Positions 2,460 through 23,758 of a DNA stretch of 25,049 nucleotides are shown in pieces (within the stretch, counting starts at the first letter, position 1; each line of letters begins with the position of its first letter). The DNA is from a virus. The notes under the pieces were generated by a model, which saw nothing but the letters and a program-made list of their open reading frames with translations, did not search any database and had not been told where the DNA came from. The position numbers were made by a program, and so were the translations under genes. Location: IMG/VR virus record IMGVR_UViG_3300044846_000970, positions 1 through 25,049 of that record. One strand, 5' to 3'.

Positions 2460-3053
2460 ATGGAAAAAAGAAAAGTAGTAAAATGCGTAATTGATGAAGA
2501 AGGTCGTCTTGGAATTACGGCGATGGGTTTAGTCGATGCGCCCGCGATAGAAGAAAACTGGATTGCACTTTCTAAGGTGCAGCTTAGTGCGGTCAATGAT
2601 GAACGTAAAATGTTATACGGTCCCGCGCTTATACCGGATAAAGAGATATTACGCTATGATGATAAGGGCGAACCTTACTATGTGTACTTTGAAAAGGCTA
2701 CGGTGCAGGCTATAGCGCATCAATTCTTTAAAAAGAATTTGCAGCATACCACCAACCTACAACACGAGATTCCCGTAACAGGTGTGACAGTAGTTGAGTC
2801 ATGGTTGAAAGAGGGTAAGAATGATAAGAGCATCGAACTAGGTTTGCCTGATTTGCCCGATGGCACATGGTTTATTGGCACGCACGTAGACGAAGACCAC
2901 GTGTGGAGTGACGTGAAAGAAGGCAAGATAAAAGGCTATAGCATTGAAGGCTTCTTCAATGAAGTGGGCGTAGCCATGAGCGGTGTCAAAAACTACGAAG
3001 CAGAATTGGTGATGGAGCTTGATGAACTACTAAGCAAAGCAACCAATAAATAA
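2460..3053 (+). CDS. XkdF-like prohead serine protease
   Basis: The 197-residue protein has the layout of the XkdF-type phage prohead protease: an N-terminal strand ending in GLVDAPAI, then LIPDKEILR near residues 57-65, a His in NLQHEIP (His102), the ESWLKEG...DKS segment near 113-124, LPDGTWFIGTHVDEDHVW near 132-149, and KIKGYSIEGFF with the probable nucleophile Ser161. These enzymes cleave scaffold and capsid proteins inside the prohead during maturation. Location two genes before the scaffold and three before the major capsid fits. Assignment is by remembered motif pattern; the exact catalytic residues are inferred. A weak TAACTTTG lies just before the start but has no -33 partner. Confidence 0.82.
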   Translation: MEKRKVVKCVIDEEGRLGITAMGLVDAPAIEENWIALSKVQLSAVNDERKMLYGPALIPDKEILRYDDKGEPYYVYFEKATVQAIAHQFFKKNLQHTTNLQHEIPVTGVTVVESWLKEGKNDKSIELGLPDLPDGTWFIGTHVDEDHVWSDVKEGKIKGYSIEGFFNEVGVAMSGVKNYEAELVMELDELLSKATNK

Positions 3054-4223: not shown

Positions 4224-4361
4224 TTACAGTATACACGCTCTTACATATTCAGCTAGGTTCATCTTGTGAGCCTTCGCCGCCTTCTGCACAGTCTTAAGTT
4301 GTTTGTCATTTAGCCTAACACTAATCTTAGTGTTCATGGGCAATGGAAGTTTGGTAGTCAT
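4224..4361 (-). CDS. small ribbon-helix-helix (CopG/Arc-like) DNA-binding protein
   Basis: A 45-residue reading frame runs against the surrounding genes in the gap between the 354-residue protein and the scaffold gene. It reads KISVRLNDKQLKTVQKAA followed by AHKMNLAEYVRACIL. That is the ribbon-helix-helix pattern: a short strand with alternating residues (ISVRL), helix A, a turn, and helix B starting NLAEYVR. Such proteins bind DNA as dimers and usually repress promoters. It ends 17 bases from the bidirectional terminator at 4180-4207, so it has its own end signal. I see no convincing promoter. A role as a late-gene regulator is inference. Confidence 0.7.
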   Translation of the reverse strand: MTTKLPLPMNTKISVRLNDKQLKTVQKAAKAHKMNLAEYVRACIL

Positions 4362-4451
4362 AATGTATGTAATTTTTTACAGTCGCTAAGGTAATCAATT
4401 TGGCGCGTGCAACAAAACGCGGTTTTGTCTACTATACCAAAATTACCAAAA

Positions 4452-8967: not shown

Positions 8968-9537
8968 ATGCCTGAAGTACTATTAATATCCGAAAACTTT
9001 GTAAAGAAGTACACCACCGTAAATGGTAGTGTTGACCCGAACCTTATCTATCCTGCCGTATATCTTGCGCAGGATAAGTGGTTGCTTCCATTTTTGGGAA
9101 CTGATTTGCTTAACAAGATTAAAGCAGATGTGGCCGCAGGTACAATAAGCGGTAATTATGAACTACTACTAGAGGACTACATCCAAAAGATGCTTCTTTG
9201 GTGGGTAATGGTGGAGCTTATGCCTAACCTTAGCTACCGTATGGACAATGGCACGTTAGTACAACGTCAAAGTGAGGACACTGTAGCGGTAAGTGATTTA
9301 GTCATGAAGGATATGATTGACCGTGCAAGGCAAAACGCAGAACACTACACCACTTTACTAGTTGATTACTTGTGTGCTAACAACGCTTTGTTCCCGGAAT
9401 ACAGCACAGCAACATGGCCTGATAGATCACCAAGGACGGATGTGACAAATACGCTCAACTATCAATTTAGTACGGGCAACACGGCCACAAGTTTCCGTCC
9501 TACTTACAGTCGCAATATCATTAACCGTATACCATGA
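8968..9537 (+). CDS. DUF6712-like head-tail connector protein
   Basis: The 189-residue protein is mostly helical and starts LLISENFVKKYTTVNGSVDP, then IYPAVYLAQDKWLLPFLGTDL, a GNYELLLEDYIQKMLLWWVM helix and a C-terminal stretch ending NALFPEYSTATWPDRSP. This is the pattern I associate with the DUF6712 family of Bacteroidota phage proteins, found next to portal genes and thought to be head-tail adaptors. It begins nine bases after the portal stop and ends as ATGA with the next small gene. Adaptor function is inferred from helical make-up and position. Confidence 0.72.
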   Translation: MPEVLLISENFVKKYTTVNGSVDPNLIYPAVYLAQDKWLLPFLGTDLLNKIKADVAAGTISGNYELLLEDYIQKMLLWWVMVELMPNLSYRMDNGTLVQRQSEDTVAVSDLVMKDMIDRARQNAEHYTTLLVDYLCANNALFPEYSTATWPDRSPRTDVTNTLNYQFSTGNTATSFRPTYSRNIINRIP

Positions 9538-11548: not shown

Positions 11549-12589
11549 ATGCAAGGTGAATACTTTGAGGTATACAAGGAAGTGCACGAAGGCGCAGGTA
11601 CGATAGCTTCACGGCTACGTGCTGCCATGACTAAGCACAATATCAAAATGCAATACGGCTCATTTGAGCGATTGTATTTTAGTTGGCGCAAAAGACATAA
11701 GCTTTCAGCTGATTCACCTGTTAAAGCGCAGGCAAAAGGTAATTTGACCAAACTTGAAAACCATTTTACTGACTTCGGTAACATGGTCAATGAGTTAATG
11801 CCTGAACAAAGTAATCCGCTAGACCTGCCACCTTCGCAGGAAGCCAACTATAAACCGTTTAAGCTTCCGATTAATCACAATAACATACTTCTGCTTTCAG
11901 ATATACACGTGCCGTATCACAACATACAGGCATTGACGTTAGCATTAAAGTATGGGCTAGAGAATGAAGTCAATACAATTCTTTTAAATGGTGACATCAT
12001 AGACTTCTATGCCATCAGTCGCTTTGAAAAAGACCCGCGTAAAAGAAACTTCGGACATGAAGTGCTAATGACAAGGCAATTCTTAGCTACGCTGCGTAAG
12101 CTATTTCCGAACGCGGCTATCTATTACAAGTGCGGCAATCACGATGTGCGTTATGATCACTACATCATGCGCAATGCACCCGATTTGTTGGGCATGGATG
12201 AGTTCAATTTTGAATCACTCATGCACCTGGATAAGTACAATATCACATTCATACCGGATAAGCAGATAATTCATGCCGGGAAGCTAACCATTCTGCATGG
12301 TCATGAACTAGGAGCGTCCGTATTCAGTCCCGTAAACATCGCACGCGGTTTGTTCTTACGTGCTAAAGACAGCGCATTGTGTGGACACCACCACCAGGCA
12401 AGTGAACATACAGAACCTAACATCAATGGTAAGATTACAACGTGCTGGAGCGTGGCCTGTCTATGTGAGCTGCACCCTGATTATATGCCTATCAATAAAC
12501 ATCACCACGGATTTGCACACGTGCGCGTTATGGATACGGGAGATTTTGAAGTGAGTAATTACAGGATTGTGAACGGTAAGATTAGATAA
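11549..12589 (+). CDS. metallophosphoesterase with N-terminal HTH-like domain
   Basis: The 346-residue protein carries the full calcineurin-like metallophosphoesterase signature: SDIHVPYH (Asp118, His120), NGDIIDFY (Asp149), GNHDVRYD (Asn197, His198), LHGHE, and GHHHQ near residues 289-293. These residues bind two metals and hydrolyse phosphoesters. The first 60 residues form a helical region ending in FERLYFSWRKRHK that looks like a DNA-binding helix-turn-helix, followed by a linker. The substrate may be DNA or RNA ends (inference). It closes the rightward late operon. Confidence 0.82.
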   Translation: MQGEYFEVYKEVHEGAGTIASRLRAAMTKHNIKMQYGSFERLYFSWRKRHKLSADSPVKAQAKGNLTKLENHFTDFGNMVNELMPEQSNPLDLPPSQEANYKPFKLPINHNNILLLSDIHVPYHNIQALTLALKYGLENEVNTILLNGDIIDFYAISRFEKDPRKRNFGHEVLMTRQFLATLRKLFPNAAIYYKCGNHDVRYDHYIMRNAPDLLGMDEFNFESLMHLDKYNITFIPDKQIIHAGKLTILHGHELGASVFSPVNIARGLFLRAKDSALCGHHHQASEHTEPNINGKITTCWSVACLCELHPDYMPINKHHHGFAHVRVMDTGDFEVSNYRIVNGKIR

Positions 12590-13942: not shown

Positions 13943-14196
13943 GGTTCTATATAGTTTGGAAGGTTATTGCCTGTGTAATAAAAATACAATTGATTCAGTT
14001 CATCCATATACTTGACATATTTATACATTGAAAACAATGTACCGTCTTCTTGTTTATGCCTAAGAACAGCTCTCGGAGTAAATCCGAAATCAAATCCAAT
14101 TTTATCATACCAATATACTTGGTCGGTTTCTGATGCTCTAAATCCGTAATCAAGAAGTGTTGCTTTATTGATTGGTATACGCTCTTTTGCTTTCAT
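13939..14196 (-). CDS. conserved small phage protein
   Basis: The 85-residue protein starts MKAKERIPINKATLLDYGFR and ends with YMDELNQLYFYYTGNNL. That pattern (RIPI...LLxxGF, then a VHxLQNLYFALTGxEL-like C-terminal helix) is widespread in Bacteroidota phages and genomic islands, without a known role. Its start is one base from the stop of the alpha/beta-hydrolase-like gene. The leader has only a weak Shine-Dalgarno match (AAAGGCGA). Confidence 0.72.
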   Translation of the reverse strand: MKAKERIPINKATLLDYGFRASETDQVYWYDKIGFDFGFTPRAVLRHKQEDGTLFSMYKYVKYMDELNQLYFYYTGNNLPNYIEP

Positions 14197-14648
14197 TAGT
14201 AGTCGCCTTTAAAGTGATTGAAAAAGTATGCGGGTATTTCGCTATGTTTTAGATTCATGCTTACAGCCTTACCACCTGTTGCATTGATTTGGTTGGCTAC
14301 ATCGTCCATGCTCTTGTTAGTACCACCCCAGTTGGATTGATTGTAGAACATGTACGTGTTAGTGGTGTATGCAATCTTTGCATAATCCATGCGAGTTGAT
14401 GGGTCAAGCAATACCACCATTGCGTAATCTTGCGAGTAGTTACGTAGCACATCCAAACCACCTGCACTAAATCCTATGAGTGCAGTTGTCTTCGGGTCTA
14501 CGTTTGCGATACTGGATAGCTTAGTTCCGTATGGTGCTATGTGTATTTCATAGCGTGACCACATCCAAGCGGGAATCTGTTTTTCCATCCATGCCGGGGT
14601 AGCATAGTGCATGCCCCCCCAAATGATTAGTGTGCAAAGTGCGTTCAT
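14196..14648 (-). CDS. small alpha/beta-hydrolase-like protein
   Basis: The 150-residue protein has the order of elements of a minimal alpha/beta hydrolase: a strand with oxyanion-hole-like turn TLIIWGGMHYATP near residues 6-18, strand YEIHIAPYG, nucleophile elbow ALIGFSAGG with Ser61, strand MVVLLDPS with Asp82, strand NTYMFYNQSNWGG near 97-109, and KHSEIPAYFF with His135. A Ser-Asp-His triad is therefore possible. It lacks the usual N-terminal strands and cap. The first 20 residues could be mistaken for a signal peptide, but more likely form a core strand. Substrate unknown. This is unusual cargo among tiny phage early genes. Confidence 0.66.
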   Translation of the reverse strand: MNALCTLIIWGGMHYATPAWMEKQIPAWMWSRYEIHIAPYGTKLSSIANVDPKTTALIGFSAGGLDVLRNYSQDYAMVVLLDPSTRMDYAKIAYTTNTYMFYNQSNWGGTNKSMDDVANQINATGGKAVSMNLKHSEIPAYFFNHFKGDY

Positions 14649-15153: not shown

Positions 15154-15349
15154 CACTACCTCCGTCATATTGAATCGCTAAATGAATGATTAATCCCACA
15201 TTTAATATACCCCATATCATTAGCAAACTGAATCTACCCATTTTAGGCCATTTTGTAACATCGGTTTCTAACGTAATGAATAAAGCGCATAGATATGCAA
15301 GCACTGCTGATGCTACTAAGTAAATCAGTATTTTAATTTGCTTACTCAT
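15146..15349 (-). CDS. small two-pass membrane protein
   Basis: The 67-residue protein has two membrane segments, KILIYLVASAVLAYLCALFI and LLMIWGILNVGLIIHLAIQY, joined by a loop TLETDVTKWPKMGRF. Its length and topology resemble small phage membrane proteins, including some holins, but it is far from the lysis genes and in the early strand. It may remodel the membrane or block superinfection (inference). Its start overlaps the exonuclease stop as ATGA; its last codons (GGSDE) carry the next gene's Shine-Dalgarno site. Confidence 0.65.
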   Translation of the reverse strand: MSKQIKILIYLVASAVLAYLCALFITLETDVTKWPKMGRFSLLMIWGILNVGLIIHLAIQYDGGSDE

Positions 15350-16116
15350 AGTGCTAAGGTATTAAGGTATTCACGCCACATCGGTACACGCTCCTGGAGC
15401 TTTGCAATTGCTGCTTCATCAAACTCCACAACCTTCTCGTGGATGCGTTCAGCAATGGGTATATCAAACGCCCATTCATCACGTGGTGTTTCTAGGTTTG
15501 CATCCGGGTATTCGCGAAGGAATCGTGGCATGTCGTATATCATGTTACGTTCAATGCTCTTTGCCTTCTTTAAAAATACAGGGTCACCTTGTGGATCAAT
15601 AAGATTTAGTCTGCGCGATAGGCGGTACTTTTCATCATTAATCATTTCGATGGGTGCGCTTACTAGCACATAACAAAACGTAGCACGCGGTGCGCCCGTG
15701 AGCCAACAATATGCTTGCCCCTGCCAGTAGTAATCTTTGCTTATATCATTCTGCTTTGCATCCATGAAGGTGTGTATATCCCAACTGCTTTTGATATCAG
15801 GCACGTTTACAACCAGTCCTATTTCATCATCTTTGATAAGTAAATCGGGTGTGCCTTTGATGTACTCATTTACAAACATCTCTTCATTCTTAAATACGAT
15901 TTCACCGCGTGACCTGCGCCACATATCAATGGCATCATTCTCTACGGCTAAACCTTTCTCAATGTACTTGTTGCTAATCTCTTTGTAGCGATTGTACTTC
16001 TGCTGGATGTAGACTTCAAGCAGTGCGCTCTTTGTGGTTTCGCTAAGTCCTGATTTAGTCCTAGCATCGGTCATCAACTTACCAAGTTGTGACGCTCTGA
16101 ATAGTGTGTTGTTCAT
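15346..16116 (-). CDS. lambda-Exo/YqaJ-type recombination exonuclease
   Basis: The ATG at 16116 (MNNTLFRASQLGKLM) is chosen; the longer frame from 16137 would need a TTG that lies inside the promoter -7 box. The 256-residue protein has the YqaJ/lambda-exonuclease core: Glu59 in KGLAVENDAIDMW, GTPDLLI with Asp91, the DIK motif (Asp107, Lys109) in VPDIKSSWDIHTF, and the helix YYWQGQAYCWLTG. These enzymes resect duplex ends to leave 3' tails for an annealing protein, which is encoded next to it. Together they form a phage single-strand annealing recombination pair. Confidence 0.85.
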   Translation of the reverse strand: MNNTLFRASQLGKLMTDARTKSGLSETTKSALLEVYIQQKYNRYKEISNKYIEKGLAVENDAIDMWRRSRGEIVFKNEEMFVNEYIKGTPDLLIKDDEIGLVVNVPDIKSSWDIHTFMDAKQNDISKDYYWQGQAYCWLTGAPRATFCYVLVSAPIEMINDEKYRLSRRLNLIDPQGDPVFLKKAKSIERNMIYDMPRFLREYPDANLETPRDEWAFDIPIAERIHEKVVEFDEAAIAKLQERVPMWREYLNTLAL

Positions 16117-16134
16117 GTTATATTGATTGATGGT

Positions 16135-16142
16135 CAAATATA
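16135..16142 (-). promoter_or_regulatory. candidate Bacteroidota promoter -7 box
   Basis: The minus strand carries TATATTTG (consensus TAnnTTTG) 18 bases before the exonuclease ATG. No TTTG is present at the -33 distance; a palindrome occupies that place. The downstream TTTGACCATCAA resembles the 17.2 kb promoter region (TTTGACCCATCAA), which supports a real start signal. Confidence 0.5.
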
Positions 16143-16145
16143 CAA

Positions 16146-16817
16146 CTATTCGGAAATTCCGAACTGTTGCTTTTTGTTATTGATTTCGTCAGCTACCTCA
16201 GCAAGTACCTCAGGGCTGCAGGCTTTGAAGATTTTGTGAAGCTGTGTGAGGTCGGTTGAAGCTGCGATAAGTTCACGCACATACGCTACGTCCTGCTCAT
16301 GCCCCCTGCCTAACGCACCCTTCAACTTGAATGGCTTGTATGTATCCTTGTTCTTGCGGTTAAGGTCACGACCAAACACTTTTCCTAATGACAATGCAGC
16401 GTTTTTAAGGCATTCTGCTTTGAGTTTACCGAATGCTAAGTCCATTGCATTAGCTTTTTTATTATCGGGGTTTAATGCCCATCTATTGCGGTCGCTGCCT
16501 GTTACATTATCCGGTACTTTGTCCACCATAATGATGACAGATGCCGCCCCTGTACGCCTTAATTCATATCCACTGATGGGATGTATCACCACTAAATCCA
16601 TTGATGCCTGCACTTCATTAGCTAATACCGCCCACTTGAAATTCTCAGTGCGCCAATGTCCAAAGAATAATTCATCAAGTGTAGTTTCTACGTGGCTAAT
16701 GACTAGCGTGCGTGCTTTCTTATCGGGTGTTGATTCAATACCCAGTTCATCAGGTTCTGCATTGAGCATCTGCTGAAACTTCTGCAATGCTTCAAGATTG
16801 TCTTTGTGAAAGTTCAT
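16146..16817 (-). CDS. Rad52-like single-strand annealing protein
   Basis: The 223-residue protein contains a pattern I know from phage Rad52-family annealing proteins: GHWRTENFKWAVLANEVQAS near residues 53-72, then VIHPISGYELRRTGAASVII, and LKAECLKNAALSLGKVFGRD followed by LNRKNKD. Such proteins coat 3' tails and anneal complementary strands during phage recombination and concatemer formation. The partner exonuclease lies directly downstream. The C-terminal 50 residues are helical (ELIAASTDLTQLHKIFKACS) and probably mediate contacts. Confidence 0.8.
   Translation of the reverse strand: MNFHKDNLEALQKFQQMLNAEPDELGIESTPDKKARTLVISHVETTLDELFFGHWRTENFKWAVLANEVQASMDLVVIHPISGYELRRTGAASVIIMVDKVPDNVTGSDRNRWALNPDNKKANAMDLAFGKLKAECLKNAALSLGKVFGRDLNRKNKDTYKPFKLKGALGRGHEQDVAYVRELIAASTDLTQLHKIFKACSPEVLAEVADEINNKKQQFGISE
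16149..16163. promoter_or_regulatory. perfect 7+1+7 palindrome upstream of the exonuclease gene
   Basis: TTCGGAA-A-TTCCGAA lies in the last codons of the annealing-protein gene (coding for FGISE) and covers the -33 area of the candidate promoter at 16135-16142. It could be an operator or a small hairpin. The coding constraint may also explain it. Confidence 0.4.
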
Positions 16818-17214: not shown

Positions 17215-17245
17215 CAAATGTACTGCAATTATTTGCAGTAGCAAG
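17215..17245 (-). promoter_or_regulatory. Bacteroidota-type promoter with embedded operator
   Basis: On the minus strand CTTG (-33, one mismatch to TTTG, 17242-17245) is followed after 19 bases by TACATTTG (17215-17222), matching TAnnTTTG. The ATG of the 59-residue gene is 31 bases further. The spacer holds CTGCAAATAATTGCAG (17223-17238), whose outer six bases on each side are perfectly inverted and which matches two copies at 23168-23210. Confidence 0.72.
17223..17238. promoter_or_regulatory. operator-like 16-bp element, copy 1
   Basis: CTGCAAATAATTGCAG (minus strand) sits exactly in the promoter spacer, where a bound repressor would block RNA polymerase. It matches copy 3 (23195-23210) at 15 of 16 positions and copy 2 (23168-23183) at 13 of 16. 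Confidence 0.65.
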
Positions 17246-17301
17246 AACAAAATTGTTAAAGAATGTTAAAATGTAGTAATGACGCGGGTTACATGGAGAC
17301 A

Positions 17302-17376
17302 ATTTGTCCCTTATAGGGTACAAATATTCGAAGATTTGTAACTTTTATAACCCATCGGGTACACACGAGGGTATAA
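17302..17376. other. structured noncoding stretch after the large terminase gene
   Basis: The 233-base gap 17184-17416 has no plausible gene. Besides the promoter it holds two bulged hairpins: ATTTGTCCC with GGGTACAAAT (17302-17325) and TTATAACCCATCG with CGAGGGTATAA (17345-17376). The element GGGTACA occurs three times (near 17316, 17357 and 17410), with a related GGGTTACA near 17286. Neither hairpin has a clear U-tail. It could be an RNA regulatory structure, a 3' end, or a packaging or replication site; nothing decides between these. Confidence 0.45.
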
Positions 17377-17416
17377 ATGCAACACAATTACTCTTGTTCA
17401 TACCTTCAAGGGTACA

Positions 17417-18715
17417 CTACGCCCACGAATAGCTGCCGTAATTTGGGAATAGTTCAAAGTACATGCGCATCATTATGGCATCAGCGTAGTCAGGACTCTT
17501 GCCGTGCATGCGGGCTATCTCATCTTTGCTTATCACAGCAAGTTTGCCGTCTGCTTCGGGTTGCCTTCTGCGTATCATGTCCAGTTCTTGCACTATCACA
17601 TCCCGGAACTGTGACACTTTAAAAATTATTTTATTCTGTTCGATTAATTCTGCAAGCTTGAAATAACATTCTGCCTTTTGGTTGGTGAACTTATCGGCTT
17701 GCTTAGCACGGCCACCATTAAGGAACCCCCTGCAACGGAGCGCATCAACCGCACCCCCTCCAACCCCATCTTCATCACAGATCACATTGCTAAGTTTGAT
17801 GCTGTGCCTGTCGCATAGTTGACGAATGGTGGCAACTACGGTGGTGATAGGTTGTTTACGTAGCTCGTGTATTTCCATTAACTGCAATCCATGCCACACA
17901 CATATGACGCTACGGTCTTTTCCTAGTCGTGCGATGTCTGCACTTATATATTTTTCTCCTTTGCTTTCTTCATCCCGGAAGCAGCGCACTAAATCATCGT
18001 ACTGGTAAAGGTTGTCTACGCTTTCATCGTATTCCCAGTCACCGTGTAATAGCCTTCGTCTATCTATTTCGGGCAAACGTTCTAGCGTTTCAAGATAGCT
18101 TTCAGGTAGGTGTGGGTTGTCAGTAGGTAGTGAAGGGATAAACGCCAGGTGTTGTGGCAAACTATCCATCTTATGTGGTGCGTAGAACTCATTGTAAAGC
18201 CATCCTTTAGATGGATTGCAAGTGAGTAGCATCTTTGGTGGCAAATCATATTCGCGTAGCTTAAAACGAATGCGGGACTGGAGTATATCTATCGCTCGTT
18301 TGCTAACCTGTGCCGCCTCGTCTACGTAGGCATCTGTTAATTCCAACCCGCCTAGGCTATGGAACTCCGCATCTGAAGGGTATGCAAAAAGGTCTTTGAG
18401 TATTATCTCGCTGCCATTGCTGAATGTTATAACGTGCGTTTGATTGTTGATGGTGTAGTGTTCATTAGGTGCTAAGCCTAACATGTGCGCTACTTCAAAG
18501 AATGTCTTTAGCGTGGTCTTCTTTAACGTATCCAACTTGCTACGGCCTATCAAACCTCGCGTGCCTGGATACTTGAACCTGCGGCTTATTTGCCATGCAC
18601 AACCTATGAACGACTTACTTCCACCTGCTGCACCTCCGAATAGCACCACACGTGCCGGGTGTGAATTACCCAGTACGCGTAGTGCTTCATTTTGTTTCGG
18701 TAGGTACTCAATCAT
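17417..18715 (-). CDS. terL: terminase large subunit
   Basis: The 432-residue protein shows both terminase modules. The ATPase has Walker A GGAAGGSKS (residues 27-35), Walker B TDAYVDEAAQ (Asp132, Glu133) and a coupling-motif-like LLTCNPSKGWL (about 163-173). The RNase H-like nuclease has YISADIARLGKDRS (Asp260), VICDEDGVGGG (Asp314-Asp316) and SPDYADAIMMR near residue 410. It pumps DNA through the portal and cuts concatemers. Unusually, it is encoded in the leftward early/replication operon, next to an SSB-like gene (TAATG overlap), away from the portal and from the small-subunit candidate at 24524. Confidence 0.93.
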   Translation of the reverse strand: MIEYLPKQNEALRVLGNSHPARVVLFGGAAGGSKSFIGCAWQISRRFKYPGTRGLIGRSKLDTLKKTTLKTFFEVAHMLGLAPNEHYTINNQTHVITFSNGSEIILKDLFAYPSDAEFHSLGGLELTDAYVDEAAQVSKRAIDILQSRIRFKLREYDLPPKMLLTCNPSKGWLYNEFYAPHKMDSLPQHLAFIPSLPTDNPHLPESYLETLERLPEIDRRRLLHGDWEYDESVDNLYQYDDLVRCFRDEESKGEKYISADIARLGKDRSVICVWHGLQLMEIHELRKQPITTVVATIRQLCDRHSIKLSNVICDEDGVGGGAVDALRCRGFLNGGRAKQADKFTNQKAECYFKLAELIEQNKIIFKVSQFRDVIVQELDMIRRRQPEADGKLAVISKDEIARMHGKSPDYADAIMMRMYFELFPNYGSYSWA

Positions 18716-18948
18716 TAGAAGGGTAAATCACCTGTGCCTTGTGAATCATCTACCTCTTCACGCTTCACCAATGGCTCACTCATCTTGCCACTAAAGAACT
18801 TACCGCTCTTGCCTTCCTTTACCCACGCAGCAAGGCGCATCTTCTTACCATTGACCATGATTTCACCTGTGTATTCAGGTGCATTGTTTGTTGTTTTGTT
18901 GTTTTTGAATAGGGTGAATTGACCCTCTTGCATTGTGTAGTTACTCAT
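18715..18948 (-). CDS. SSB-like protein (DUF736 type) with DLPF tail
   Basis: The 77-residue protein has GQFTLFKNNKTTNNAPEYTG, then EIMVNGKKMRLAAWVKEGKS and GKFFSGKMSEP, a pattern like small DUF736-type OB-like proteins. It ends in an acidic Gly-rich tail, DDSQGTGDLPF, that matches the DDDLPF tip through which bacterial SSB recruits repair and replication proteins. It therefore probably binds single-stranded DNA or competes for SSB partners. It is much shorter than cellular SSB (about 170 residues). Stop and terL start overlap as TAATG. Confidence 0.7.
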   Translation of the reverse strand: MSNYTMQEGQFTLFKNNKTTNNAPEYTGEIMVNGKKMRLAAWVKEGKSGKFFSGKMSEPLVKREEVDDSQGTGDLPF

Positions 18949-18953
18949 TGTGT

Positions 18954-19136
18954 TTAATTATTAATTACGTTTATGTCTTCGTACATTAGTGATATAGTAA
19001 TCTTACCACCTAACTCTGTTGTTTCAACTATATTAAAATCTAATTGCTGGATGCTGTGGCCTTCGATGTAACCGATGTATACTTCTGTATCATCTGAATA
19101 CTGTGCGAGCTTATCCCACAATTCACCTATTGTCAT
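18954..19136 (-). CDS. small conserved hypothetical protein
   Basis: The 60-residue protein starts MTIGELWDKLAQYSDDTEVY, a helix followed by D-D-T-E-V, a layout common in small phage and plasmid proteins of unknown function (MTVGELIxxLxxxxPDxEV). The rest is beta-prone (TELGGKITISLMYEDINVI). It is acidic. Its start forms an ATGA overlap with the upstream gene. Confidence 0.68.
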   Translation of the reverse strand: MTIGELWDKLAQYSDDTEVYIGYIEGHSIQQLDFNIVETTELGGKITISLMYEDINVINN

Positions 19137-19288
19137 AACTTATAGTCGTCATTACCTGTCATCAAATGCAATTCGTTAAGCAGTAGCCACATCGCTTGAT
19201 TGTCTTGCATTGATGGGCGCATACTTCTTCTGATTGCTAAGATAACAAGCTTTCTCAATAGTTCGTTTTCTTTGTTTACATCGTGCAT
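19133..19288 (-). CDS. small helical hypothetical protein
   Basis: This 51-residue frame fills the gap between two genes and overlaps its downstream neighbour as ATGA; its start follows the upstream stop as TAGTATG. It reads MHDVNKENELLRKLVILAIR, then MQDNQAMWLLLNELHLMTGN and ends DDYKL. The helical content and its tight fit support it. No family is recognised. Confidence 0.6.
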   Translation of the reverse strand: MHDVNKENELLRKLVILAIRRSMRPSMQDNQAMWLLLNELHLMTGNDDYKL

Positions 19289-19289
19289 A

Positions 19290-19976
19290 CTAATACTCGT
19301 TTTGCTGTTCAATCAATTCGCGGTAACGTTCCTTCCTAAACTCTGTGAACTGGTACGGCTTGTTGTTATACACGCGGAAGCGCATATCATTGTCCCATGA
19401 AGGCAGTTCATCGTATTCATCCATCAGCATTTGTTCAAACCGTGACGGCTTGGAACGCTTTGCTTCTTGTGCCGGAGCTTCTTCTATCTTCAACTTATCC
19501 GCTGCCTTTTGGATAGCGTCCACCACCTGCGGATGTTGGAACATTTCGTAGATGTTGTTGTTGCTTTGTTGGTCTTTCACCATACGTGTAGTTACCGCAT
19601 CACGCTTGCTAAAAAACTTGCGTATCCATTCAAAGAATACTTGCCCATCAATGCGATTGTATACCGGTCCATATTCACCTTTCATTGCCATTCGAAAACA
19701 CATTTTAAATTCTTCAACACGCAAGTAGTAGTATTCTTCAATAATCAATTCAGCAGTTAGCATCAGTTGTTGTGGACTCATTGGTTGTTGCAAATTAAAG
19801 TACTGCTGACACTCATCCATAAGCGCAATTAAAACACTTAACGCAGCTTGTTCTCCTTTAGCTTTTCTAATCTCACTCAGTGCTGGTGATGTCTTGGTCG
19901 CTAAAACTTGTTGCAACGCTGTTTCGATATTGTTCACGGAACTTCTCAAGTTCGCTAGCTCGTTTTTCTCTTTCAT
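19290..19976 (-). CDS. DUF6633-like replication-associated protein
   Basis: The 228-residue protein contains MSPQQLMLTAELIIEEYYYL and then EEFKMCFRMAMKGEYGPVYN followed by RIDGQVFFEWIRKFF, about residues 66-122. This is the pattern I associate with the DUF6633 family, found beside replication initiators in Bacteroidota phages and elements, where a helicase-loader-like or primosomal role is suspected. N-terminal residues are a coiled coil; the C-terminus is acidic and aromatic. Its first 104 bases overlap the end of the initiator gene in another frame, suggesting coupled synthesis. Confidence 0.7.
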   Translation of the reverse strand: MKEKNELANLRSSVNNIETALQQVLATKTSPALSEIRKAKGEQAALSVLIALMDECQQYFNLQQPMSPQQLMLTAELIIEEYYYLRVEEFKMCFRMAMKGEYGPVYNRIDGQVFFEWIRKFFSKRDAVTTRMVKDQQSNNNIYEMFQHPQVVDAIQKAADKLKIEEAPAQEAKRSKPSRFEQMLMDEYDELPSWDNDMRFRVYNNKPYQFTEFRKERYRELIEQQNEY

Positions 19977-20658
19977 TTTGAATTATGTTTTTTGGTTTTT
20001 GATTTTTGATTTTATCCCATTCCCGGCGCATCCAGTTCTTAACTGTGCTTTGCCAATCCTTCATTGATGTCTTGCCTACTATCCATCCATTGGCTTCATA
20101 GTGATCCATAAAGGTGCGGGCGAAATTAACTAACTGAACCTCGTTCATAAAATTCCTACCCGCTGCATTTAGTTCGCCCATCAGGTTGTAGACATCATTC
20201 TCATGAGGCTTCACAAACTTTTTGCGCGTAGTCTTTTTTTCATTTGCATCTTCAATTATAATTTCATTTTCATTTATATTTTCATTTTCATTTACTAAAG
20301 GCATTGCCGTGGCATATGCCGTAGTAGATGCCGTGGCATCTGTATCACAAGTTTGATTTTTTCTTTTTTTCCATCCATCAATAGCACGCACACGCTGCTT
20401 TTCAGCATGAGCCTTACGCTTATCTATTTCAATTTCAAGGCGTGCATTAAAAAAAAGTCCATCATCATCTTGCTGAAACTTTGCCAGCACATCTGCCGTG
20501 GCATTGCCGCAGCATAGCCGTATCATCTTTTCGGTTAAATGTCCTTTTTGATGTTGTAGGCAAAGCAAAGTGATGTATTGACCACGTTCTTCCATAGTCA
20601 AATCCTGCACACCCGAAATGAAATCGGATGAATAAAAAAGAAAAGCCGGGTCTTTCAT
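19873..20658 (-). CDS. replication initiator / DnaT-like protein (DUF1376-type N-terminus)
   Basis: The 261-residue protein begins with AFLFYSSDFISGVQDLTMEE followed by RGQYITLLCLQHQKGHL, the DUF1376-type winged-helix start seen in phage replication initiators. A Thr/Ala and Asn/Glu-rich linker follows (DATASTTAYATA, NENENINENEIIIED; about residues 105-140), then a helical domain with WQSTVKNWMRREWDKIKN typical of phage O- or DnaD-like proteins. It should open the phage origin and recruit helicase. The linker DNA holds tandem repeats that could be its binding sites. A promoter and structured leader precede it. Confidence 0.75.
   Translation of the reverse strand: MKDPAFLFYSSDFISGVQDLTMEERGQYITLLCLQHQKGHLTEKMIRLCCGNATADVLAKFQQDDDGLFFNARLEIEIDKRKAHAEKQRVRAIDGWKKRKNQTCDTDATASTTAYATAMPLVNENENINENEIIIEDANEKKTTRKKFVKPHENDVYNLMGELNAAGRNFMNEVQLVNFARTFMDHYEANGWIVGKTSMKDWQSTVKNWMRREWDKIKNQKPKNIIQNEREKRASELEKFREQYRNSVATSFSDQDITSTE
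20230..20339. repeat. candidate replication origin: tandem 12-bp iterons beside AT-rich DNA
   Basis: Plus-strand TGCCGTGGCAT occurs at 20305-20315 and 20329-20339, with TGCCGTAGTAG at 20317-20327 exactly between: three units at a strict 12-base spacing. A fourth perfect copy lies at 20494-20504. The unit is itself nearly palindromic (ATGCC-GT-GGCAT). Beside it, 20230-20294 is very AT-rich with repeated ATTTTC/TTTCAT blocks. Iterons within the initiator gene next to an AT-rich stretch resemble the lambda O/ori layout. Coding repetition is the alternative explanation. Confidence 0.5.
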
Positions 20659-20664
20659 AAACTA

Positions 20665-20736
20665 AATACCCACCACTACACACAAAGGCAACCCAGCGCA
20701 CGGTTGTGCTTATGGCAATGCGGTAATGGTGGGATT
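20665..20736 (-). promoter_or_regulatory. structured leader of the replication-initiator gene
   Basis: The 107 bases between the promoter -7 box and the initiator ATG hold a distant inverted repeat: CCCACCA near 20727-20733 and TGGTGGG near 20669-20675, with AAT/ATT extending it after one bulge. A smaller CAACC/GGTTG stem lies inside. The 3' arm is about seven bases before the ATG, so folding could hide the start. A 12-codon frame (MKNILNPTITALP) starts just upstream. Confidence 0.4.
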
Positions 20737-20765
20737 TAAAATGTTTTTCATACTGAGTTGCAATG

Positions 20766-20796
20766 CAAATATAGTCAAACTATATCTACTTCCAAA
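20766..20796 (-). promoter_or_regulatory. Bacteroidota consensus promoter for the replication genes
   Basis: On the minus strand TTTG (20793-20796) is followed after exactly 19 bases by TATATTTG (20766-20773), a full match to TTTG-N19-TAnnTTTG. It overlaps the last codons of the upstream gene and would start a transcript for the initiator, DUF6633, SSB-like and terminase genes. A TTGCAATGCAA palindrome lies just downstream. Confidence 0.75.
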
Positions 20797-21214
20797 TAAT
20801 TGTTGCGATTAAGAAACCTAGTATCACACCAACTGTAAGAATGATAATCATTTTACTATTGCTTCTATCGTAATTCAATAGATCAACATCAGGTTGCGGT
20901 GCTGGCTCTGTGCGCTCAACTCGTTTGATGGGTTTGATTGTGAGCTGTGCTATGCCTGCCTTTGATTGACTATTTGCAATACGTGACTGCTTGAAACATT
21001 CTTTCGCAAATGCATTAGCAATAGCGGTGGTTGGCATATCACCAGTCCAGTGAGTTACTTTGTTCTTGCGTTTAATCATGCCGCGTTCTTTCATCAATGT
21101 AATTAACCGATTACTCACGCGGTGTTCTTGACGCATAGCGTCCATGTCAAAAGATTGGGCATTGTAGAGCGCAATCATAAAATTGTAATACTTTGTTTTT
21201 GTGTCTGTTCTCAT
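20786..21214 (-). CDS. HTH-like protein with C-terminal membrane anchor
   Basis: The 142-residue protein starts with a winged-helix-like domain (KYYNFMIALYNAQSFDMDAM, then RVSNRLITLMKERGMIKRKN and VTHWTGDMPTTAIANAF), a type seen in DNA-binding proteins of Bacteroidota phages. A Pro/Arg/Glu linker follows. The last 23 residues are a membrane segment, MIIILTVGVILGFLIATIIW, ending in Lys. A DNA-binding domain tethered to the membrane is unusual and could attach phage DNA or a promoter to the membrane (inference). The end overlaps the initiator promoter. Confidence 0.65.
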   Translation of the reverse strand: MRTDTKTKYYNFMIALYNAQSFDMDAMRQEHRVSNRLITLMKERGMIKRKNKVTHWTGDMPTTAIANAFAKECFKQSRIANSQSKAGIAQLTIKPIKRVERTEPAPQPDVDLLNYDRSNSKMIIILTVGVILGFLIATIIWK

Positions 21215-21573
21215 TGCTCTAAATACGTTTTAATTGTTATTGTAAATTCTTCAAATGACCTGCACACCTTAACTGCATATCCTGCATTGATAAGCTGCGC
21301 GTGAACGATTTTTTGTGTGTCCGATAGTTTGCCTTTCTCTGTTTTCATCTCGATAAACAAAGCGTGGTGTGGCCCGTTGCTCATGCATATCATTAAATCA
21401 GGCATACCGGGCATGGCTCCTTCTGCTTTCAATAGGTTCCATCTACGCGCTCTTTGTACAGGTGTACCACCTATGTACACACCATTAGGAAAGGAAGCGA
21501 TTAAAACGCGCGGGAATGAGTATCTAAACCATTCAACACAGCGTTGCTGAATCTTGCTTTCTTCATGCTTCAT
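21211..21573 (-). CDS. VRR-NUC domain nuclease
   Basis: The 120-residue protein has the full VRR-NUC layout: ESKIQQRCVEWFRYSFP at the start, FPNGVYIGGTPVQRARRWNL, LKAEGAMPGMPDLMI with Asp59, LFIEMKTEKGKLS with the catalytic Glu75 and Lys77, then QKIVHAQLINAGYAVKVCRS. These are PD-(D/E)xK nucleases that, as stand-alone phage enzymes, cut structured or branched DNA; this one probably processes recombination or replication intermediates. It overlaps both neighbours. Confidence 0.85.
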   Translation of the reverse strand: MKHEESKIQQRCVEWFRYSFPRVLIASFPNGVYIGGTPVQRARRWNLLKAEGAMPGMPDLMICMSNGPHHALFIEMKTEKGKLSDTQKIVHAQLINAGYAVKVCRSFEEFTITIKTYLEQ

Positions 21574-22093
21574 GTAACATCATTTTAAAGGTGTACCAAA
21601 ATAAGCCTACATAGTCGTATTGTGCATCAATACATACTGCAGGCAGCGTATCACGTAGTTCGCCATACTCCCAGTGTCCTAAAGGCTGCACTTCATAATC
21701 ACATTGTGTAGATGTTTTGCTATACTGGATGCTGCTTAATGGCACAGGTTCGGTAAATTTCACAACATACGAGTAGTTGTGATTGATTGTGACTAGGTAA
21801 AACATCCGCGCGGGTGAATAGATGCGCTTTGGTTTTTCAGTTTGGCGAAAGTGACCACCTACATTGTATTCATTTGCGCTGTCAATCTCATCAGTATTCG
21901 AATCGTAGAAGTCAAGCTCCTGCTTTATATGCCGCCACTTAGTAGATGCTAACCGATTATTGTACACTACTAACATCCATTCGTGAACAGTCTTTTCAGG
22001 CACGCCTAAATCAACTTGAATCTGTTTGATTGAATGCTTATTCAATGCTTTGCGCAGGTAGTTGACTTGTTTTTGTGTGGGTAGCTTATTCAT
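21563..22093 (-). CDS. hypothetical protein with N-terminal helix-turn-helix
   Basis: The first 60 of 176 residues look like a helix-turn-helix (QKQVNYLRKALNKHSIKQIQ followed by VDLGVPEKTVHEWM), the order of a HTH with recognition helix PEKTVHEWM. The rest is beta-rich and aromatic (YSPARMFYLVTINHNYSYVV, VCIDAQYDYVGLFWYTF), of unknown fold. It is likely a regulator or DNA-binding accessory of the early region. ATGA overlap with the upstream gene. Confidence 0.6.
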   Translation of the reverse strand: MNKLPTQKQVNYLRKALNKHSIKQIQVDLGVPEKTVHEWMLVVYNNRLASTKWRHIKQELDFYDSNTDEIDSANEYNVGGHFRQTEKPKRIYSPARMFYLVTINHNYSYVVKFTEPVPLSSIQYSKTSTQCDYEVQPLGHWEYGELRDTLPAVCIDAQYDYVGLFWYTFKMMLHEA

Positions 22094-22311
22094 AGTTTTC
22101 CTGTTATATATAATTCAACTACTATCATTTCTTTAATGTCATCATCTGCCCATTCACACTCATAAACGATACTTTCAATTTTACCAACTATCCATTCATC
22201 TTCTTTCATAAATCCTACACGTTCTCCAATGCGTGGGATAGTAGGCATTTTAACATAAAATCTTTCATCTAAATCAGAATGACATATTGCAACAGTTATT
22301 AAATTATTCAT
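22090..22311 (-). CDS. small beta-rich hypothetical protein
   Basis: I prefer the ATG at 22311 (MNNLITVAICHSDLDERFYV), with an eight-base overlap on the upstream stop, over that at 22320; AAGGTG lies just before it. The 73-residue protein has PRIGERVGFMKEDEWIVGKI and ends IVVELYITGKL. This short PRIGExV...W.V..I pattern occurs in small phage proteins of unknown role. Acidic overall. Confidence 0.62.
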   Translation of the reverse strand: MNNLITVAICHSDLDERFYVKMPTIPRIGERVGFMKEDEWIVGKIESIVYECEWADDDIKEMIVVELYITGKL

Positions 22312-22537
22312 CACCTTCATGTTTTATGTTTATAGAATTGATTAGCTCACACACCGGCACATCCATAGCCTTACTCATGTTGATCAGTTGTGATAGTTGT
22401 ATCACTCGCACATCACGCATCCAGTTGTAAAAGGTTCTTTCATTTACGGGTGTGTTGTTACGTTGCATAGCACGCAGGAGGGCAGCCTTACTGCCCACCG
22501 TGCGTACAACGAGTTCATTGAATCTTTGCTGCTTCAT
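22304..22537 (-). CDS. XRE/Cro-like helix-turn-helix regulator
   Basis: The 77-residue protein is a compact helical DNA-binding domain: SKAALLRAMQRNNTPVNERT with recognition helix region TFYNWMRDVRVIQLSQLINM and then SKAMDVPVCELI, which matches the Cro/CI (XRE) layout with a five-helix bundle. It is an early gene and the best in-window candidate for the protein that binds the 16-bp operator copies, including those at its own promoter (inference). ATGA overlap with the gene above. Confidence 0.72.
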   Translation of the reverse strand: MKQQRFNELVVRTVGSKAALLRAMQRNNTPVNERTFYNWMRDVRVIQLSQLINMSKAMDVPVCELINSINIKHEGDE

Positions 22538-22869
22538 GAAATCGGTTTAAGTTGTGGATTCGCCATGTAGAATATTTCGCGGTGTATCTCGCTGAACTTG
22601 TGTTGAAACACGGCCGCGTCAATAGGCTCATACAAACGCTCTCGCATATCCTTTTCTAAGCGTGCAGATACTTCTTCGGCATCTTCATACTTGCAGGTGT
22701 CTACATTAGCATAAACGCTATTCATGCGAATCTGAATAAGCACTAATTGCTCTGTAATGCAACAGTAGTTTTTTTGGTAAGTGCCACATATGTAGTAATG
22801 TGGTAGGGTTACATTAGTAGTCCCCACTACCGTAGGGGCTACTTGTTGTACTTCAATTGTGTGTGTCAT
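22534..22869 (-). CDS. hypothetical early protein
   Basis: The 111-residue protein starts MTHTIEVQQVAPTVVGTTNV and has YYICGTYQKNYCCITEQLVL, then an acidic helical half (EDAEEVSARLEKDMRERLYE). I do not recognise a family. It shares its first seven codons and the bases around its start with the 59-residue gene at 17004-17183. Three Cys residues cluster near residues 28-37. It lies second in the main early leftward transcript. Confidence 0.6.
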   Translation of the reverse strand: MTHTIEVQQVAPTVVGTTNVTLPHYYICGTYQKNYCCITEQLVLIQIRMNSVYANVDTCKYEDAEEVSARLEKDMRERLYEPIDAAVFQHKFSEIHREIFYMANPQLKPIS

Positions 22870-22889
22870 TGTGTTTATTGGATTTTAAA

Positions 22890-23132
22890 TTAATCTTCGT
22901 TATCATAGCAGCAATCGCAAGTGGTGCGAACGCTAGCGTATTGAGATACTACATATGATATAGCGTCTTCGATGAAACAGTCCCAGTGACAAGCCATGTC
23001 ATCAGCGTCCAAACCTTCATTGTTTTTTTCAAGAAGTTTGGTAGCTTCTTCTTTCACTTCATCATAGTAGTTAACTGTGTAGTCGCAGTGGATGCAAGTG
23101 TCATCCTCGTAGTAAAAATCTGATTCGTTCAT
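22890..23132 (-). CDS. acidic Cys-rich protein, first gene of the early leftward operon
   Basis: The 80-residue protein is strongly acidic (MNESDFYYEDDTCIHCDYTV) with a CxxC pair (CIHC) near the start, ACHWDC in the middle and CDCCYDNED at the end. The paired cysteines and His suggest metal binding. No family is recognised. It is the first gene after the strong consensus promoter at 23171-23201, the usual place for host-takeover proteins in phages, which makes it a candidate inhibitor of a host factor or a DNA mimic. That is inference only. Confidence 0.62.
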   Translation of the reverse strand: MNESDFYYEDDTCIHCDYTVNYYDEVKEEATKLLEKNNEGLDADDMACHWDCFIEDAISYVVSQYASVRTTCDCCYDNED

Positions 23133-23152
23133 AGTGCTTATTGTTTTGTTGT

Positions 23153-23160
23153 TATCTTTG
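23153..23160 (+). promoter_or_regulatory. candidate rightward -7 box for the sigma-like gene
   Basis: TATCTTTG fits TAnnTTTG on the plus strand and would start RNA near 23167, ahead of the sigma-like frame. No TTTG lies at the -33 spacing, so this is weaker than the opposite promoter. Operator copies 2 and 3 lie just downstream. Confidence 0.35.
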
Positions 23161-23167
23161 TTTGACC

Positions 23168-23210
23168 CTGCAAATATATACAGGATTACTTACACTGCAA
23201 ATAATTTCAG
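23168..23210. promoter_or_regulatory. two operator-like 16-bp elements (copies 2 and 3)
   Basis: CTGCAAATATATACAG (23168-23183) and CTGCAAATAATTTCAG (23195-23210) are direct copies 27 bases apart. Copy 2 covers the -7 box and copy 3 the -33 box of the leftward promoter, so occupancy would block it and possibly the rightward start. Confidence 0.68.
23171..23201 (-). promoter_or_regulatory. Bacteroidota consensus promoter of the early leftward operon
   Basis: On the minus strand TTTG (23198-23201) precedes TATATTTG (23171-23178) by exactly 19 bases, a full match to TTTG-N19-TAnnTTTG. The first ATG of the operon is at 23132, giving a leader of about 30 bases. Confidence 0.8.
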
Positions 23211-23218
23211 AAATATTT

Positions 23219-23758
23219 TTGGATAATTGTGTAAATAGTGAAATATCAAGGCATTACGGTTCGTGGATAAACAAGGCAACGGGCCTAACACACGACAAAA
23301 CACGGGCAAAAGACCTCGTGCATGAAGTCCTTACACGGTTACTGGATAGACCAGAACAGGATGTGGTGGATATTGTTTGCCGTGGTAAGGTAAGGCAGTA
23401 TGTTGATCGTGCTTTGTGGCTATCATGGCATAGCAATAGAAGTGATTACGCTATGCGATACCGTAAATACTACGAGCTTATCACAGACAAAGGTGTAGAT
23501 GATACTAAACAGGATGAAACGTGGCTAGGTTCCTTTGTAGACGGTGAATATTTATACAACGCAATTGATAGACTAAATGAACACGATGCCATCTTACTGC
23601 GTCTATACGCTAAACCCGATTTCAACTATCAAAAATTAAGCACGGAAACAGGCATACCATATGCCTACCTTCGTCTATCAATACACCGCGCATTAAAACG
23701 AATACGCACATATGTTCAACTTCAACGTACCACCAGCAATCCAACGCGAGAGGCTTGA
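23219..23758 (+). CDS. sigma-70 family (ECF-like) RNA polymerase factor
   Basis: The 179-residue reading from TTG at 23219 has a region-2-like helix, KDLVHEVLTRLLDRP (about residues 32-46), a middle segment with VRQYVDRALWLSW, and a C-terminal region-4-like helix-turn-helix, DAILLRLYAKPDFNYQKLST then ETGIPYAYLRLSIHRALKRI. This two-domain layout matches the small sigma-like proteins of Bacteroidota phages, probably used to direct host polymerase to phage late or middle promoters. No in-frame ATG exists near the start, so the true start is uncertain (TTG or an upstream ATT/ATA). It is divergent from the early operon and shares the operator region with it. Confidence 0.74.
   Translation: MDNCVNSEISRHYGSWINKATGLTHDKTRAKDLVHEVLTRLLDRPEQDVVDIVCRGKVRQYVDRALWLSWHSNRSDYAMRYRKYYELITDKGVDDTKQDETWLGSFVDGEYLYNAIDRLNEHDAILLRLYAKPDFNYQKLSTETGIPYAYLRLSIHRALKRIRTYVQLQRTTSNPTREA

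Follow-up and report, generated by a model that had tools for sequence, protein, structure and literature searches.

Which protein reads the three similar 16-bp sites that lie at early promoters of the phage record IMGVR_UViG_3300044846_000970? A preliminary description of this DNA had noticed the sites and proposed that they serve one phage repressor. The window analyzed here is the entire IMG/VR record of 25,049 bases. It is probably a fragment of a longer phage genome, because the long relatives measure 28-36 kb; the site scans were restricted to the record, and copies beyond its ends would be invisible to them. From sequence comparison, the sites are likely to be operators of the phage's own XRE-like protein (77 aa, 22304..22537, minus strand), encoded by the third ORF of the leftward operon and acting as a Cro-like, self-limiting early repressor.

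The three sites were confirmed as exact matches at the positions and on the strands first described. The predicted operator O1 (CTGCAAATAATTGCAG) occupies 17223..17238 on the minus strand, and the predicted operators O2 (CTGCAAATATATACAG) and O3 (CTGCAAATAATTTCAG) occupy 23168..23183 and 23195..23210 on the plus strand. The outer CTG...CAG is indeed common to all three, and the sites are imperfect palindromes of the form XTGYA-N6-TRCAX with 5-base half-sites XTGYA. A predicted fourth operator, a weaker copy (CTGTAAAAAATTACAT, 4367..4382, minus strand), is located at the gene for a ribbon-helix-helix (RHH) protein, 5 bases ahead of its start codon and 3 bases behind its -7 box. A pattern scan of the whole record returned three exact matches and none in 100 dinucleotide shuffles; as the pattern had been derived from the sites themselves, this figure overstates the significance. 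When three mismatches were tolerated, 11 matches, the fourth copy among them, were obtained against 5.2 expected, and 2 of 100 shuffles reached 11. The loose core NTGYAN6TRCAN was not enriched in 14 genomes (6-9 per genome, shuffle means 4.8-7.1).

Bacteroidota promoters differ from the textbook type. The accessible part of PMC7366714 gives their consensus as TTTG near -33 and TAnnTTTG at -7, and reports the -33 motif as not found in Flavobacterium johnsoniae. The promoters were read with this consensus. The leftward early promoter (TTTG-N19-TATATTTG, 23171..23201, minus strand) is one of two strict TTTG-N18..21-TAnnTTTG matches in the window. Its -33 TTTG (23198-23201) lies within O3 and its -7 box TATATTTG (23171-23178) within O2, with 19 bases between them; gene order and strand suggest that it drives the XRE-like gene. 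O2 also begins 7 bases past the -7 box TATCTTTG (23153..23160, plus strand) of the rightward promoter of a sigma-like gene, which is without TTTG at the -33 place, and thereby sits where transcription of that gene should begin. In most of 65 loci, visual inspection showed a box like TATCTTTG ahead of the sigma-like gene. O1 takes up the stretch between the two boxes of the recombination-gene promoter, whose -7 box TACATTTG (17215..17222, minus strand) abuts it, with a TTG 19 bases upstream at 17242-17244. The putative RHH promoter has the -7 box TACCTTAG (4386..4393, minus strand) and a TTTG at 4413-4416. The three original sites thus fall on or between promoter boxes, as had been noticed, and all four positions would suit steric repression. 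CAAATA, part of the common core, is a -7 or -33 box read backwards, and because the core is partly explained by promoter boxes, the outer bases are the informative part of the site.

Relatives were collected by IMG/VR scans with the terminase, sigma-like, RHH and XRE-like proteins, plus record searches. Three of the four protein scans contributed the best 80 matches each, and at least 196 records or pieces, including the window, were kept after dropping those whose middle 300 bases recurred in another. The longer relative G001 (31,924 bases) has a terminal repeat of 127 bases. The closest phage terminase was that of Flavobacterium phage 11b (49%).

Among these relatives the sites mostly hold their position, while their letters vary by phage group. 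In 104 records the sequence extends 100 bases or more past the terminase. In 92 of them O1 has a site that matches 6/8 core positions or better and lies beside a -7-like box, and in the other 12 no O1 site reached 6/8. These counts lean towards the search pattern, because in seven records (G003, G017, L040-L042, L073, L078) a similar repeat was visible by eye at the O1 place, yet fell below the filter. Sequence upstream of the sigma-like gene was retained for 83 of 93 records, and in most of 65 loci paired sites were seen there by eye. Their half-sites were group-specific: CTGCA in the window's group, GTGTA, GGGTA or GTGCA in group B, ATGCA or GGGCA in group C, and others elsewhere. Searches for the RHH gene were positive in 22 of 50 records in a first set and in 14 of 18 in a second; of the 17 records in the first set that measure 28 kb or more, 16 have it. 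At the RHH start, a score of 5/8 core positions was non-discriminating, because 81 of 81 records passed, even G010 and the cut-off G026; these two were excluded by hand from the partial correlations, and the sites were later re-scored at 6/8 and 7/8. At least 6/8 was reached by 35 of 36 distinct upstream stretches (28% of shuffles) and at least 7/8 by 19 of 36 (3% of shuffles). A strict AT-centred motif had 27 of its 29 matches in 14 genomes at the three loci; as its counts per genome were no higher than in shuffles, it is the placing of these matches that tells. Within genomes, distant sites agreed in their letters (O1 with O3, 0.498, n=44; O1 with the RHH site, 0.50, n=20), and given the terminase neither agreement was reached in 5000 shuffles.

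The co-variation of site and regulator in related phages, which the preliminary description had proposed to examine, was analyzed by comparing protein distances with site distances for 24 genes (Mantel). O1 was best correlated with the XRE-like protein, which is encoded 5 kb away (0.60, n=58), and showed no such relation to the adjacent terminase (-0.03, n=57), to the exonuclease (0.16, n=39) or to the neighbour gene of the exonuclease (0.17, n=44). The O1-XRE signal persisted when 24 other genes were controlled for one at a time (partial r never below 0.316, reached by no more than 1 of 1000 shuffles), after deduplication (0.537, n=45, 0 of 2000) and after removal of the K33 genomes (0.588, n=22). 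By parsimony, the outer base of O1 (n=31) required three changes on the XRE tree, four on the trees of the sigma-like gene and of gene 23712, and six on the terminase tree. Given XRE, the residual correlations with O1 were 0.268 for 2460-3053, 0.20 for 8968-9537, 0.189 for 11549-12589, 0.159 for 22534-22869 and 0.148 for 20786-21214. This covariation fits the earlier suggestion of one phage regulator over the early operon, the recombination promoter and the sigma-like gene, and it favors the XRE-like protein, named there as the nearest candidate. Two other proteins were rejected as site readers: for the sigma-like protein the O1 correlation dropped from 0.485 to 0.022 given XRE (n=48), and for ORF 21563-22093, which has a weak Sigma70_r4_2 match, it was 0.02 given XRE.

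The XRE-like protein is predicted to have helices at residues 3-13, 17-26, 33-41, 48-58 and 62-69, the arrangement of the five-helix lambda-repressor-like fold with a helix-turn-helix, and many of its top structural matches are XRE-type regulators. A profile search against the PDB matched 3omt, an Xre-family entry, weakly (E 0.025); the only PHROGs match was weak as well (E 0.047, a family of unknown function), and no Pfam match was obtained. The XRE positions that share most information with O1 are 41, 32, 33, 49 and 43, and the predicted recognition helix is 33-41, with residue 33 as its first position. When residue 33 is basic, the outer base is G in 27 of 29 distinct pairs in each O1 half. 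When it is acidic, the right O1 half carries C (13 of 13 distinct pairs), and the outer base at sites other than the right O1 half is mostly A. The left base of O3 is G in 37 of 39 cases with a basic and in 0 of 15 with an acidic residue 33, and the left half of the RHH site has G in 16 of 17 cases with a basic residue. Mis-extracted O3 sites in G034 and G051 and a probably mis-called O1 in L094 were kept in these residue-33 counts. Residue 33 may correspond to Gln28 of the 434 repressor, which contacts base 1. Contacts between an acidic residue and cytosine have at least been proposed, since the accessible part of PMC3317979 describes a modelled glutamate-cytosine contact for the 933W repressor, made by a residue outside the recognition helix.

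Several observations weigh against the assignment to the XRE-like protein. The best structural model had a pLDDT of 78, and the other four of five were poor (49-60). In Foldseek no match reached E 0.001 (C.BclI, probability 0.97, TM 0.64; best E 0.77), and the VIA Z-scores for NGO0477 (8.4), TP901-1 CI/MOR (8.1-6.5) and 434 Cro (5.6) may, by the tool's own warning, reflect the mere common arrangement of helical folds. The O1-XRE correlation was weaker within the K33 genomes (0.234, n=23, 6 of 2000), and the preference of O2 and O3 for XRE (0.462 and 0.548 given RHH, n=27) may be linkage because the XRE gene is close by. The left O1 half has G in 3 of the 13 acidic-33 pairs, and the Fisher values for residue 33 ignore descent, with about three independent changes behind them. 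Two of the 29 strict-motif matches lie elsewhere, one extra each in G001 and G004, and no strict match was found in G002 and G015 among the 14 genomes scanned. In groups C and D, the palindromic symmetry of some O2 sites is poor. G010 is the single miss among the 36 distinct stretches at the RHH start, which has no inverted repeat in this genome; its RHH protein is divergent (37% identity), as is its XRE helix, and it retains a site at O1. The RHH site favors RHH (0.43 given XRE, against 0.159 for XRE given RHH, n=28), a fit that may again be linkage because the gene adjoins its own site. Finally, the XRE and RHH trees tie for the outer base of O1, with one change each in the 16 genomes that have both genes.

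The last two points could be read to mean that the RHH protein represses all of the sites and, like other small RHH repressors, its own promoter, and that the XRE-like protein does something else. The almost constant presence of a site at the RHH start would agree with this, as would the raw correlations of RHH, which peak at its own site (0.74, n=29) and are also high for O2 (0.68, n=28) and O3 (0.66, n=27). At the distant O1, where adjacency plays no part, RHH adds nothing given XRE (0.012, reached in 2289 of 5000 shuffles), whereas 0.325 remains for XRE given RHH (7 of 5000; n=21), and G010 has a site at O1 and none at RHH. We therefore regard RHH as an unlikely sole repressor. The preliminary description had listed RHH as another candidate regulator; its gene seems rather to be regulated through the site, as a fourth target, than to encode the protein that reads it. 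The site letters seem to follow XRE most clearly, with a possible share of RHH.

A division of labor, in which the XRE-like and RHH proteins, two different folds, use common operators at different times, one early and the other late, as CI and Cro do, would account for the fit of both proteins to the RHH site and for their own co-divergence. The two co-diverge at a Mantel value of 0.82 (n=29) although their genes are ∼18 kb apart. This is the third highest of 276 gene pairs, and both higher pairs are adjacent genes. The value remains at 0.64-0.76 when the RHH site, the neighbour gene of RHH or the sigma-like gene is controlled for, and each of the two co-diverges less with the neighboring genes tested than with the other. 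The co-divergence may reflect operators in common or the joint survival of matched sets; in the latter case RHH may simply move with its site, only matched sets surviving. As RHH leaves no residual signal at O1, we consider such a pair of repressors quite unlikely. One may also speculate, as a tentative extension with a small chance of being right, that in a lineage without lysogeny genes the two proteins, unrelated in fold, share a single set of operators at the early promoters and have co-diversified with it into several specificity groups, so that the repressors of strictly lytic phages sort co-infecting relatives in the way of immunity groups.

The E. coli SOS box, too, is built as CTG-N10-CAG, and a host regulator such as LexA could read the outer CTG...CAG of the window's three sites, tying the early genes to host damage. 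This is very improbable, as relatives with ∼97% identical terminases have GTG half-sites, other groups have ATG or GGG, and the changes follow a phage protein. Hardly credible is that the sites are mere AT-rich Bacteroidota promoter sequence without a regulator, as the reversed box in CAAATA and the unenriched loose core might suggest, since letters agree between distant promoters within genomes and since the boxes are flanked, not covered, by O1 and the RHH site.

If the XRE-like protein is the reader, a dimer would bind XTGYA-N6-TRCAX with one recognition helix per 5-bp half-site, and residue 33 would help to set the outer base. A host sigma factor would first transcribe the leftward replication operon, the sigma-like gene, the recombination operon and the RHH gene. 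The XRE-like protein would then accumulate from the leftward operon and cover the promoter boxes at O2/O3, O1 and the RHH site, and this coverage would shut off its own operon together with the other targets. A lysis-lysogeny switch was considered and is not supported. The families PF00589, PF00239 and PF13614 (tyrosine integrase, resolvase and ParA) were each found in 0 of 22 long records, the completeness of most of which is uncertain, while positive controls of the family scans gave matches in 14, 10 and 14 of 14 genomes. Ten G001 proteins, covering part of that genome, matched tail, exonuclease or unknown-function families in PHROGs or had no match. A pattern-based scan of genome contigs gave no relative of the terminase. 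Because none of the three families was found in the 22 long records, a Cro-like brake that acts on timing is more probable than a switch to lysogeny.

Cro-type lytic repressors are known from lambda and 434, and the telomere phage PY54 is said to have one. The locus resembles these systems in that a small single-domain protein of XRE-like fold is encoded in the early operon that it would shut off, and in that symmetric operators lie on promoter boxes at divergent promoters. It differs from them in its Bacteroidota-type promoters, in sites at three loci that include the recombination operon and the RHH gene, and in the lack of integrase, resolvase and ParA families in long relatives. TP901-1 CI/MOR is among the best structural matches of the XRE-like protein (6tri, 3zhi, 6to6), and TP901-1 reportedly has divergent promoters under repressors. 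That phage is temperate and uses the two repressors CI and MOR, whereas here one XRE-like and one RHH protein are present and no lysogeny gene was found. The 45-aa RHH gene, whose own promoter carries a site, resembles small RHH repressors such as Arc and CopG in this respect, but the covariation of the distant O1 speaks for the XRE-like protein. Cluster A mycobacteriophages are said to be temperate and to carry many dispersed stoperators, in contrast to the roughly four symmetric promoter sites and the lack of any lysogeny sign here. They share with the present phages a repressor specificity that varies among relatives, described in the accessible part of PMC6550527 as a continuum.

The proposed circuit is compact and testable, and it provides naturally occurring pairs of protein and operator, with a single helix position that follows a single base of the DNA. 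It also presents a puzzle, as fast-diverging repressor specificities are kept by phages in which no lysogeny gene was found. If relatives do silence each other's early promoters, lytic phages would compete with one another in this way. To our knowledge, early-gene regulation in Bacteroidota phages is little described. A literature search for such operators and repressors found no title on this lineage, although its coverage was partial and this is not proof of novelty.

The RHH gene (4224..4361, minus strand, 45 aa) is located inside the rightward structural genes. Its product matched the Pfam families DUF6290 (30.6 bits, cut-off 27) and NikA-like (28.7, cut-off 27), both of which we take to be RHH families; RHH_1 stayed below the cut-off (15.6 of 20.5), and a profile search against the PDB gave no RHH-like chain up to E 1. 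The sigma-like gene (23213..23758, plus strand, start codon uncertain) matched phrog_1740 (E=1.6e-7), with Pfam region 4 below the cut-off and no match in the phage collection. The operon behind O1 contains a RecE-like exonuclease (15346..16137, minus strand; phrog_5715, E=2.6e-45; phrog_434, E=3.8e-11). Between it and O1 lies a gene (16146..16817, minus strand) whose only match was phrog_15333, of unknown function (E=0.0083); from its position, its product may be a recombinase. A 150-aa ORF among the genes behind O1 (14196-14648, minus strand) carries a GFSAGG motif, presumably as in alpha/beta hydrolases.

The second strict promoter in the window (TTTG-N19-TATATTTG, 20766-20796, minus strand) lies ahead of a primosomal-like gene (19873-20658). 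No good XTGYA-N6-TRCAX operator was seen there; TTAAAATGTTTTTCAT (20736) lies close to it and occurs unchanged or almost unchanged in several relatives, e.g., G009, G012 and G001. In most relatives viewed, a TTTAACA-rich element (often TTTTAACAATTTTTAAC; ∼17244-17275, minus strand) is located directly upstream of the O1 promoter, and in several it adjoins O3; it is perhaps an UP element or the site of another protein. An inverted repeat, GGTTACAATCTGTAACC, which is perhaps a terminator, recurs between the terminase and O1 in relatives (e.g., L008, L011 and L036), some of which also carry a TTTATACCC-rich stretch in the same interval.

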